DNA of 64,000 nucleotides, taken from positions 1 through 64,000 of the forward strand of contig NZ_JALTON010000039.1 of assembly GCF_027000115.1 (NCBI RefSeq), written 5' to 3'. Under the pieces are notes generated by a model, which did not search any database, was not told where the DNA came from, and saw only the letters and a program-made list of their open reading frames with translations. Shown here piece after piece: positions 20,310 to 61,015 of this stretch. Every line of letters begins with the position of its first letter. Position 1 is the stretch's first letter. Origin of the DNA: Thiohalobacter sp. GTDB taxonomy: Bacteria; Pseudomonadota; Gammaproteobacteria; Thiohalobacterales; Thiohalobacteraceae. Position numbers and translations under genes: made by a program.

Positions 20310-20330
20310 GGCGTCCCGAGTGTCGGGTAG

Positions 20331-20946
20331 GATGGGCAAAGCGAAGCGTGCCCATCGGATGACTGCAAGAGCGCCACGGACGACACGGAAAGCACGGACA
20401 GAGTGAGTGTCCGCTCTGTCACCCCGGAGCAGGATGGGCAAAGCGAAGCGTGCCCATCAACCGAGTGCCGGTTCGCACCACCAGGCGGGAGTGAACCATT
20501 CCACCTTTTTTCCGCCCCTGCCGGGCGGGTTACTTTTCTTTGCCCGGCCAAAGAAAAGTAACCAAAAGAAAGGCCGCCCCGCTGCCGCCCCCTTCGGGTG
20601 CCCTGCGCTTCTCGCGGGCCGCGGGGCCGCGCGCAACTCGCTGCGCTCAGACACTCGCGCGGCCTGATCCGCGTCCCGCTGCGATGCTCGGGGCGGCAGA
20701 GGGGACCCGAATCCGGGTCGGTGGCCGGGCTGGCCGCCAGCCAGCCCGGCATCATTCTTCTGTCCGTGCCTTTCTTGTCGGCCGTGGCGTTCTTGCGAGG
20801 TTCCGATGGGCACGCTGCGCTTTGCCCATCCTGCCCCGGGGTGACTACGCGGGGTGAGCGGGCGGACATTCGATCTGTCCGTGCCTTCCGTGTCGTCCGT
20901 GGCGCTCTTGTGGTTTTTCTGATGGGCACGCTTCGCTTTGCCCATC
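20331..20946. repeat. Intergenic repeat island with nested inverted units
   Basis: The roughly 690-base gap between folE2 and the PilZ gene holds no credible gene. It contains four copies of a 26-bp imperfect palindrome beginning GATGGGC (20331-20356, 20433-20458, 20805-20830, 20921-20946); the first two are inverted relative to the last two. A 35-bp unit beginning AGAGCGCCACGG (20368-20402) recurs inverted at 20874-20908 with one mismatch, and more diverged near 20760-20794. Together they give arms of about 72 bp facing each other over 470 bp. An 11-bp GC-rich hairpin occurs at 20724-20750. The same 26-bp unit recurs twice near 32.3 kb. Dispersed repeats of this kind are known from other gamma- and betaproteobacteria and are often mistranslated as small proteins. 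Confidence 0.85.
20528..20563. repeat. 15-bp perfect hairpin inside the repeat island
   Basis: GGTTACTTTTCTTTG pairs perfectly with its complement across a 6-base CCCGGC loop. This A/T-rich stem within GC-rich DNA is the core of a widespread intergenic repeat type and could form a cruciform or a strong RNA hairpin. Its role is unknown. Confidence 0.8.
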
Positions 20947-20997
20947 CTACGCGGGGTGACGGGCGCGCGCTCGCTCTGGCTGCGTCGTCCAATGCAG

Positions 20998-21667: not shown

Positions 21668-21858
21668 TTAACCCGGCAACCCAATATGTCGTGTTCAGCC
21701 GGGCCTTCCCCTTGATCTTGAACCTGTCAGGGATGCAGAGAAAGCCCCTGCCCGGCGTTGTGGCGCTTGCCAAGGGCTGGGGCCATTGCCTGCGAGCCAC
21801 GCCTTGTTCAGCGCCTTTCTCTGCATCCTGAACACGATATATTGGATTGCCGGGTTAA
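21668..21858. mobile_element. MITE-like element flanked by TTAA
   Basis: A foldback element sits between two TTAA copies (21668-21671 and 21855-21858). Its ends are 26-bp inverted repeats starting CCCGGCAA (21672-21697 and 21829-21854, three mismatches). A further 14-bp perfect inverted pair (21731-21744 and 21815-21828) directly extends the right arm but is separated by 33 bp in the left arm, so the ancestral terminal repeat was probably 40 bp with a later insertion. It contains no gene. The right TTAA contains the TAA stop of the protease gene. This fits a transposed non-autonomous element with a 4-bp target duplication; the parent transposase is not in the window. Confidence 0.7.
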
Positions 21859-22556
21859 TAACGCTTCCTCAGCACCAGGTGGTCACCCTCGTTGGCCAGC
21901 CGCAACCGCCCCAGGAAGGACATGCCCAGCAGCAGCTCACGGGGATTCGGCCCTTCCAGCACCACGGCCTCGACATTGTTGAGTTCGATGCTGCCCACCC
22001 GGACGCGATCCAGGCGTATGCGCCAGGCCGGCTCCGCGCGCGAGGCGGTCATGACCCGTACCGGCTCGCCCTCGACCCGAAAGTCGATACCCAGGCGGCG
22101 CGCCTGATCGCCGTTCATGGCGATCATCGAGGCCCCGGTATCGACCAGAAACTTCACTGGAAAGCCATTGATGCTGCCGATCGTACGGAACATGCCGCCA
22201 CGATCGCGCCAGATGACCACCTGGGCGCCGGCATCGGCCCGGGCTGCTTCCCCCAGCTCCCGCGCCCGCGCGCCGAGCCGGACCCGCAACTCGCGGCCCT
22301 CGTGGCGGAAACGCGCGGCACCGTCCTCCACCGCCACCAGTTCCAGGCCGTCGGGGGTGCGCTGCCCGATCCGCAGCCTGTGCTGCACGCCGTCCACGCG
22401 CACGATGGCCTGCTGCCCGAACAGCGCCAGCACCTCGATGTCGGCCGCCAGAACCGGGATCCCCCATACCAGCAGGAAAAAACCGGTGGTGATCCACTTT
22501 CGCAAGGACGTGTCCACCTGTCCGGCCGGATCCGTATCCATCCTCTTCTCGTCCAT
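21855..22556 (-). CDS. Secreted retropepsin-like aspartic protease
   Basis: The 233-residue protein has an N-terminal hydrophobic segment (about 21-37) with likely cleavage after AA at 38. A roughly 90-residue beta-rich region follows, then a clan AA aspartic protease domain with the active-site motif VDTGAS (Asp139-Gly141) preceded by INGFPVKF and followed by LLGMSFL. A single catalytic motif implies a homodimer, as in retroviral proteases. It is probably periplasmic or membrane-anchored. Substrates are unknown for this bacterial family. The final codons are Tyr then TAA, with the TAA belonging to the TTAA flank of a foldback element. pgpA lies 62 bases upstream on the same strand. Confidence 0.82.
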   Translation of the reverse strand: MDEKRMDTDPAGQVDTSLRKWITTGFFLLVWGIPVLAADIEVLALFGQQAIVRVDGVQHRLRIGQRTPDGLELVAVEDGAARFRHEGRELRVRLGARARELGEAARADAGAQVVIWRDRGGMFRTIGSINGFPVKFLVDTGASMIAMNGDQARRLGIDFRVEGEPVRVMTASRAEPAWRIRLDRVRVGSIELNNVEAVVLEGPNPRELLLGMSFLGRLRLANEGDHLVLRKRY

Positions 22557-32245: not shown

Positions 32246-32321
32246 TGATGGGCACGCTGCGCTTTGCCCATCCTACGGCTGACCGGATCCGTAGGATGGG
32301 CAAAGCGCAGCGTGCCCATCA
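32246..32321. repeat. 33-bp perfect inverted repeat between ettA and msrQ
   Basis: Two GATGGGC-type 26-bp units, the same as in the 20.3-21 kb island, stand in opposite orientation with their CCTACGG extensions. They form a perfect 33-bp inverted repeat around a 10-base loop. It lies between the convergent ettA and msrQ genes, where it could stop transcription from both sides or form a cruciform. Confidence 0.9.
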
Positions 32322-56338: not shown

Positions 56339-56465
56339 ATGGACATTCTCCGAAGCTGTGGCAGACCGGTCTTCCTCCGGGGGTGCCGCCCGCCGTTGCG
56401 TTCCTCACACCCCATAGCGACTGCCGACGGCAAAACTGTAGCCCGCACAGCATCAGGGCCGACAC

Positions 56466-56488
56466 AAAAAACCCCGGTAGTGCCGGGG
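56466..56488 (-). terminator. Rho-independent terminator upstream of the second chemoreceptor
   Basis: The stem CCCCGG/CCGGGG with a 5-base loop is followed on the minus strand by six T residues. It lies in the 500-base gap between the DUF302-like gene and the chemoreceptor and should end leftward transcripts from the former. The rest of that gap, outside the foldback element, shows no gene. Confidence 0.7.
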
Positions 56489-56566
56489 TCGAGGATCGCG
56501 GGCGGGGTCGGGAAAACCAAACTGCCCCCGCCCGGGGCCGACAGAAGCAGCGTGTTCCACTGCTGC

Positions 56567-56612
56567 GCCCCTGGTGCAATATGCGGGCTAGCCCGCATAT
56601 TGCACCAGGGGC
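56567..56612. repeat. 46-bp perfect palindrome, two element ends back to back
   Basis: The palindrome consists of two opposite copies of the end sequence GGTGCAATATGCGGG sharing one central CTAG. Its right half is the left end of the adjacent foldback element. The left half is a second, outward-facing end whose own element is not clearly present; a diverged match lies near 56438-56458. Confidence 0.85.
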
Positions 56613-56849
56613 TGCGGATGATGGCGGATTTGCAGCCGGGCTCGGGGGATGCTGGAGCGAAAGCCGTAGCCGTCGCTACGGCTTGAGTGAAGCACCCCCG
56701 AGGCCGAGCGAAAATCCGCCAGGGCCGCAGCAGGAAGCGGGCGGGCACAAATCGTACTCCGGACCATGGGCAAAAAATCCGGTTCATTACGTACCAGGAC
56801 AACAAGTTGGCTCCCGCCCGCTTCCGACCTGGTGCAATATGCGGGCTAG
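56588..56849. mobile_element. MITE-like element flanked by CTAG
   Basis: A 262-bp non-coding element has perfect 18-bp terminal inverted repeats starting CCCGCATATTGC, flanked by CTAG on both sides (56588-56591 and 56846-56849). Inside are a hairpin with a 9-bp stem (56662-56683), a longer imperfect stem around it, and a 13-bp perfect pair (56733-56745 with 56813-56825), so the whole element folds back on itself. The right CTAG contains the TAG stop of the neighbouring gene. It has no open reading frame of its own. The pattern fits a non-autonomous transposon with a 4-bp duplicated target. Confidence 0.75.
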
Positions 56850-59624: not shown

Positions 59625-60971
59625 ATGCAGCACAGCACCCACTGGAAGATCGCCGCCGTCACTGCCGGCGCATTGACATTGGCGGGGACCGCGCAGGGCG
59701 CAGGATTCGCCATCATCGAACAGGGCGTCAGCGGTCTGGGCAACGCCTACGCGGGCGCCGCCGCCAGTGCCGAGGATGCCACCACGGTATTCTTCAACCC
59801 CGCCGGCATGACCCGACTGTCGGGCGCGCGGCTTACCCTTGCCGGACACATCATCCGTCCCTCGGCGAAGTTCTCCGACAGCGGGACCACCGATGCGCTC
59901 GGCAACCCGATCGCCAGCGGCGGCAACGGCGGCGATGCCGGCGGCGTGGCGCTGGTGCCCAATGCCTACTACACCCGTCCGCTCGACAACGACACGATCC
60001 TGGGCATCGGCATCAACGCTCCCTTCGGACTCACGACCGAGTATGACGATAACTGGGTCGGCCGCTACCAGGCCATCAAGTCCGAACTCAAGACCGTCAA
60101 CATCAATCCGAGTCTGGCCTGGAAGGCCAGCGATCGCTGGTCACTGGGCGCCGGCATCAATATCCAGTATATCGAAGCGGAGCTGAGCAATGCACTGGAC
60201 ACCGGATCGATCTGTTACGGCCTCGCCGGCCCGGCCACCTGTGGGCTGTTCGGCCTCGCGCCCCAGCAGGCCGACGGCAAGGCCACGATCGAAGGCGACG
60301 ACTGGAGCTTCGGTTTCAACCTCGGCGCCCTCTACGAATTCGATGTGGACAGCCGGATCGGTATCGCCTACCGCTCCAGAATCAGCCATACCCTCAAGGG
60401 TAATGCCGACTTCACCATTCCTGCTGCGTTCCAGAACTTTCTCACGGCGGCCAGCAGCACGGCCTTCTCCGACACCGGGGCAAGCGCCAGTGTCTCCCTG
60501 CCCGAGACCCTCTCCGTCAGTGCTTATCACGCGCTCGACGAGCGCTGGGCCATCCTGGCCGACGTGACCTGGACGCGCTGGAGCCGATTCAAGGAACTGC
60601 GGGTCCGCTTCGATTCCGGTCAGCCCGACAGCGTCACCGACGAGCACTGGGAGAATGCCTTGCGTTACTCGCTCGGGATGAACTACCGCTACAATGACCG
60701 GTGGCTGCTGCGGGCCGGCGTGGCCTTCGACGAGGAACCGATCCCCGATGCCGCGCACCGCACGCCGCGCATCCCCGGCAACGACCGCCGCTGGCTTGCG
60801 CTCGGGGCCAGCTACCGCGGCTCGGCCCGCATGAGCTTGGACGTCGGCTATGCCCACCTGTTCGTCAGGGACACGCCGATCGCCCATGCCAGCAGCTCCG
60901 CGGGGAGCATCATCGGCAACTACGACAACAGCGTGGACATCCTCAGCGTCCAGATGAACTGGACATTCTGA
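59625..60971 (+). CDS. FadL-family outer membrane porin B
   Basis: The 448-residue protein has a signal peptide (cleavage after QG or GA near residue 24), the plug with GAGFAIIEQGVSGLGNAYAG, and the NPAGM motif near 62. Its barrel repeats include GINAPFGLTTEYDDNWVGRYQA, a family hallmark, and it ends with an aromatic residue (MNWTF). It matches FadL/TodX more classically than porin A. The start with GAGGAG upstream is chosen. The shared upstream region with porin A suggests joint control. Confidence 0.93.
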   Translation: MQHSTHWKIAAVTAGALTLAGTAQGAGFAIIEQGVSGLGNAYAGAAASAEDATTVFFNPAGMTRLSGARLTLAGHIIRPSAKFSDSGTTDALGNPIASGGNGGDAGGVALVPNAYYTRPLDNDTILGIGINAPFGLTTEYDDNWVGRYQAIKSELKTVNINPSLAWKASDRWSLGAGINIQYIEAELSNALDTGSICYGLAGPATCGLFGLAPQQADGKATIEGDDWSFGFNLGALYEFDVDSRIGIAYRSRISHTLKGNADFTIPAAFQNFLTAASSTAFSDTGASASVSLPETLSVSAYHALDERWAILADVTWTRWSRFKELRVRFDSGQPDSVTDEHWENALRYSLGMNYRYNDRWLLRAGVAFDEEPIPDAAHRTPRIPGNDRRWLALGASYRGSARMSLDVGYAHLFVRDTPIAHASSSAGSIIGNYDNSVDILSVQMNWTF

Positions 60972-60992: not shown

Positions 60993-61015
60993 CCCTGGTG
61001 CAATATGCGGGTTAA
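60993..61015. repeat. Solitary element end with TTAA flank
   Basis: The sequence CCCTGGTGCAATATGCGGG is followed by TTAA. It matches the right end of the 56.6-kb element over the full terminal repeat. No matching left end is seen in the preceding porin gene, so it is a remnant or a captured end. Confidence 0.7.

Follow-up and report, generated by a model that had tools for sequence, protein, structure and literature searches.

Structured RNAs carried by bacterial transposons are known from the omega/HEARO RNAs of IS200/IS605 and IS607 and the bridge RNAs of IS110. Here we describe a short element at positions 56588-56849 of a 64,000-nucleotide stretch of Thiohalobacter sp. DNA (contig NZ_JALTON010000039.1, positions 1 to 64,000; hereafter the window), which carries a module that resembles these RNAs, compared via Rfam only, in that it is structured, RNA-like and set at a constant position close to the end of a transposon. 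Unlike them, the module is borne by a gene-less element of apparent IS1380 type, and over its length no match in Rfam 15 reached the gathering score (sub-threshold chance matches only). The IS1380 family (PF13701/NF033539) comprises prokaryotic relatives of piggyBac and is the outgroup to piggyBac in PMC10813416; one member, IS1247, has been recorded with 5-bp repeats (PMC3281130). The element shares with this family terminal repeats of the CC(C)G-ATATT-GCA type and a 4-bp duplication of YTAR, mostly CTAG, but it is only about 250 bp long, lacks a transposase gene and contains a module that had no match among 60 autonomous IS1380 loci searched. The Tn3-derived TIMEs (Tn3-derived inverted-repeat miniature elements) are bacterial MITEs (miniature inverted-repeat transposable elements; PMC4133298) and are, like the element, short, non-autonomous and multicopy, with ends matching an autonomous transposon; the interior of the element, on the other hand, is no unrelated filler but a conserved, covarying structure common to many genera. 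No report on IS1380 MITEs or RNA-bearing MITEs was found in the open literature. We consider it quite probable, from comparison of sequences, that the element belongs to an old family of gene-less transposons of ~240-255 bp that carry a conserved module and are mobilized in trans by DDE transposases of the IS1380 family.

Terminal repeats, target and transposase type

The element spans 262 bp including both flanking CTAGs, with exactly the coordinates and perfect 18-bp ends of the original prediction; the inverted ends are identical at 18/18 positions, or 22/22 counting the CTAGs. It belongs to a multicopy family without a transposase gene inside. In its own genome (2.65 Mb, 63 contigs) the 18-nt end gave 172 matches with up to three mismatches, compared with 1 for a reversed control, and 24 copies were near full length, the nearest being 97-98% identical. 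A class-wide scan for YTAR followed by the end found the pattern in 24 of 369 gammaproteobacterial genomes, and in 1 genome for the reversed control. Plasmid and phage sequences gave no match.

A candidate source of the transposase was found in one of these 24 genomes, as an element of 1.64 kb that shares these ends and contains an open reading frame (ORF) matching PF13701 (E = 1.7e-171) and the IS1380 model NF033539 (E = 5.5e-127). Its transposase, first seen on a contig of an Acidihalobacter metagenome-assembled genome (MAG), is 100% identical in that MAG and in a Thiohalobacter MAG. Among autonomous IS1380 loci encoding relatives of this transposase (from GTDB), 31 of the 41 scored for ends had CC-starting inverted ends of this type between identical 4-bp flanks. 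Twenty-eight of these flanks were YTAR (CTAG 21, TTAG 5, TTAA 1, CTAA 1) and three were one base off (ATAG, CTAC and TTAT, 1 each). When the MITE end type was tested against autonomous IS1380 elements, the terminal inverted repeats matched, and copies of both kinds have the same target and the same 4-bp duplication. Among 144 flanks of MITE copies, 72 were exact YTAR, 45 of them CTAG, and most others were one change off, in line with the YTAR targeting proposed originally. Flanking repeats that are identical but not palindromes (ATAG twice, CTAT twice and TTAG once, all at MITE copies) show that the 4-bp target is duplicated.

No IS1380 gene (PF13701) with these ends was present in the element's own genome, in a closed sister genome or across the order; the local copies are therefore orphans. 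By ends and target, we assign the transposase to the IS1380 family, not IS5, and the element is best described as a putative orphan non-autonomous IS1380-type MITE. In the closed sister genome (G001, L235-L254), ~344 end matches with at most one mismatch occur in 3.0 Mb. A shorter class of ~130-140 bp, with the same ends and without the structured module, was also seen (L042:7041-7179, L017:7005-7145 and L211:188-327).

The conserved structured module

Alignment of the 24 copies revealed that one half of the element is nearly invariant and the other half diverges. Elements belonging to other families contain this conserved half too, with its stems changed on both sides; the module begins 16-17 bp inside one end of the element. 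The element had been described as a foldback, a label that fits it overall (z -14.5) and that missed the conserved structured module inside. In an 11-sequence MAFFT alignment, paired cells amounted to 95.5% and 14 of 32 pairs had changed on both sides; none of 500 shuffles reached the covariation score, and the signal collapsed when the alignment was slid by one column. Sets aligned with a covariance model, built from sequences that included the copy at 56609..56745, had both-side changes in 27 and then, in a 30-genome set, 28 of the 32 pairs. In the latter set G-U outnumbered A-C by 58 to 6 on the modelled strand.

The covariance model matched 34 of the 369 genomes, from 29 genera, at E <= 0.001. 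Matched terminal repeats surrounded the best module match in 28 of 30 genomes; nearly all of these repeats started with CCnG and lay 14-17 bp away from the module, and the elements measured 238-272 bp. The repeat pairs of G335 and G001 were less standard. The end variants ATATTGCAC, ATTTCTCAC and ATATTTCAT have counterparts among autonomous IS1380 elements. Across gammaproteobacterial lineages, comparison shows that the predicted base-pairing of the module, rather than its sequence, is conserved, and that the module lies at a constant distance from one end. The interior is, as predicted from these alignments, a conserved structure absent from Rfam and not a random foldback. The module likely acts as RNA, because on the strand modelled G-U pairs far exceed A-C mismatches, and because internal loops have stayed unpaired. 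Its orientation to the nearest upstream gene was antisense in 18 cases and sense in 10 (p = 0.18); at stop sites counted once per genome the figures were 12 and 5, which is a lead only.

Two further observations concern relatives of the module. In G001, the covariance model still recognizes interiors that have diverged, and a segment, GATCGCGGCCTGGAGGCCGCTCCTAC, that resembles repetitive extragenic palindromes (REPs) is present in other copies. In G296 (L346-L350), the apical hairpin of the module forms part of another kind of short repeat, which has GGGTCGCTG / CAGCGACCC as its closing sequences and no YTAR ends.

Insertion at stop codons and features of the locus

The analysis drew on the sequence surrounding copies and, for the sister genome, on an even 400-kb sample. 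In the own and sister genomes, stop codons were hit by 31/86 YTAR-flanked insertions, compared with 42/483 other non-coding YTAR sites (odds ratio (OR) 5.9, p = 7e-10). The excess remained when the comparison was made with YTAR sites within 30-60 bp after stops (OR 4.0-5.3) or with CTAG only (OR 3.2). Local GC was higher at insertion sites than at background sites; adjusted for GC and CTAG, the log-odds were 1.19 (bootstrap 0.56-1.81), an OR of ~3.3 (1.75-6.1). With one copy per genome from 25 genomes, and genes called by ORF length, 15/25 copies were at stops versus 15/104 background sites (OR 8.9, p = 9e-6). Pfam domains were present in 14 of 16 genes at the one-per-genome stop sites, own genome left out, including sigma-70, RF-1, THDPS and ZapD. 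A fair statement is that at least one third of insertions are at stop codons, above background in most, not all, comparisons: the enrichment at TAA/TAG anticipated by the original prediction was borne out in the own, sister and one-per-genome sets, but not in controls from six further genomes or for autonomous IS1380 elements. At L317 and L324 the element lies between converging genes, and both ORFs end at the flanking CTAG.

At the locus itself, the ortholog of the adjoining gene in a sister genus (~84% identity where aligned) has the same last residue at an empty ...CCCTAG site without the element, in support of the view that insertion at the stop left the protein intact. That the gene ends within a flanking CTAG was correctly predicted; its description as DUF302-like was not supported, with no Pfam match at E <= 0.001. 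The left CTAG adjoins the ends of two copies, indicating that the same site was hit twice, and the two ends facing each other across it form a 46-bp palindrome. The far border of the older copy is uncertain, as its interior aligns weakly to short copies and 16/300 shuffles score as well. The features of the locus are listed in Table 1.

Table 1. Features at and around the element (positions in the window)
Feature	Position	Strand	Remarks
Non-autonomous IS1380-type element (putative MITE), 254 bp	56592..56845	+	Perfect 18-bp terminal inverted repeats CCCGCATATTGCACCAGG
Left 4-bp target copy, CTAG	56588..56591	.	Doubles as flank of older copy
Right target copy, CTAG	56846..56849	.	Holds minus-strand TAG stop of adjoining gene
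Left terminal inverted repeat, 18 bp	56592..56609	+	
Right terminal inverted repeat, 18 bp	56828..56845	-	
Conserved structured module, 137 nt	56609..56745	+	Full-length covariance-model match, 137.1 bits, E = 2.3e-24
Right half of element	56733..56825	.	13-bp hairpin arms 56733-56745 / 56813-56825, fast-diverging interior between
Remaining end of older copy	56567..56587	-	Faces newer element across common CTAG; interior further left decayed
Gene with target at stop codon	56846..57784	-	Sister-genus ortholog ends at same residue
Terminator-like hairpin	56463..56494	-	Matches sister-genome sequence shortly after stop; displaced from gene by insertions
Third element end in window, solo	60994..61011	-	TTAA flank 61012-61015; ~40 bp past stop of gene 59625-60971

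The window holds other repeats as well. The TTAA-flanked element cited in the original prediction is real and represents a separate multicopy family: at 21668-21858, TTAA is followed by 183 bp with CCCGGCAACC... ends and again by TTAA, and ~8 longer copies occur in the genome. Gene 21855-22556 ends with a TAA stop that lies within the right-hand TTAA. Further inverted-repeat clusters with the motif GATGGGCACGCTTCGCTTTGCCCATCCTAC are found at 20324-20956 and 32246-32321.

Mechanism and alternative explanations

In the mechanism we favour, an IS1380-type transposase supplied in trans would cut at YTAR. Tolerated sites would often be stop codons, since every YTAR includes TAR and few YTAR sites occur within GC-rich genes, and the duplicated target would restore the stop and leave the protein unchanged. 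Selection would keep the module, most likely as RNA, which might either aid movement of the element or act on read-through from the gene next to it. Of these two roles, the one in transposition of the element itself seems slightly more likely, since the place of the module is fixed relative to the end and its orientation to host genes is not.

The transposase could instead belong to the IS5 group, as was originally predicted. IS5-group elements target YTAR, and in one relative, G008, CTAG flanks a DDE_Tnp_1 element whose ends are GGAACCTCTGCACA. The element's own genome, however, has no DDE_Tnp_1 gene, the readable ends of DDE_Tnp_1 elements in relatives are unrelated to the CCCGCATATTGCACC ends, and both ends and target are shared with IS1380 copies; IS5 is already largely refuted and we regard it as highly improbable. 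As candidate partners, the DDE_Tnp_1 elements of relatives were rejected for having other ends wherever borders were readable, which in the sister genome was the case for part of them. Still less credible is a repeat of the REP or bacterial interspersed mosaic element (BIME) type, moved by a REP-associated tyrosine transposase (RAYT, HUH). The copies are short, palindromic, mostly intergenic and numerous, as such repeats are, but they have terminal inverted repeats in common with a DDE-transposase element as well as 4-bp target duplications. No target duplication is expected of REP/RAYT members, and identical 4-bp duplications are present. A more serious alternative, though still an unlikely one, is that the module pairs only as a DNA palindrome, which hairpin-mediated template correction maintains, and has no function as RNA. 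The foldback character of the whole element and the near constancy of the module within one genome, as gene conversion could give, are consistent with this. Across genera, however, helices change on both sides while internal loops stay unpaired, and palindrome correction would tend to erase such loops; the strand bias in G-U over A-C and the much faster divergence seen in the element's right half also argue against it.

The excess at stop codons may be due to selection alone, with purifying selection removing insertions from other parts of genes and from regulatory sequence, and stops being the tolerated YTAR sites. This explanation, which is compatible with movement by an IS1380 transposase, we hold to be somewhat more probable than its converse. 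Few insertions lie inside genes, local GC differs strongly between insertion and background sites, and autonomous IS1380 elements are at ORF stops in 12/38 cases, no excess over the local YTAR background (74/263). Against selection as the whole cause, the excess in the own and sister genomes persists relative to YTAR sites shortly after stops and after the GC and CTAG adjustment. Several points weigh against the mechanism we favour. Six other genomes had a weaker excess at stops (13/37 versus 28/150, OR 2.4, p = 0.04), and none under CTAG-only or 3'-proximity controls; genes were called with a home-made codon-usage caller or, in two sets, by ORF length alone. IS1380 mobility is read from ends and target, and no matching IS1380 transposase occurs even in the sister genome with its hundreds of ends. 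G296 has a related module within another kind of repeat, which lacks these ends. The later structure alignments, including the 30-genome set, were made by fitting to the model and are biased in its favour, and some of the covariation could be mimicked if imperfect palindromes in DNA were corrected.

MITEs are usually regarded as transient deletion products whose interiors carry no meaning; a covarying structure across genera suggests that the interior of these elements has a function. We tentatively propose, at somewhat less than even confidence, that they are long-lived, gene-less DDE-type transposons with a functional structured RNA as their true cargo, whose ends vary among IS1380 types and which settle at stops with little harm. 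The family also makes it possible to measure whether YTAR-targeting elements take advantage of stop codons and offers a testable case of an RNA borne by a DDE transposon, and the transposase assignment is corrected from IS5 to IS1380. If the proposal is true, a cargo RNA in ~30 gammaproteobacterial genera may have a part in transposition or affect transcripts nearby.
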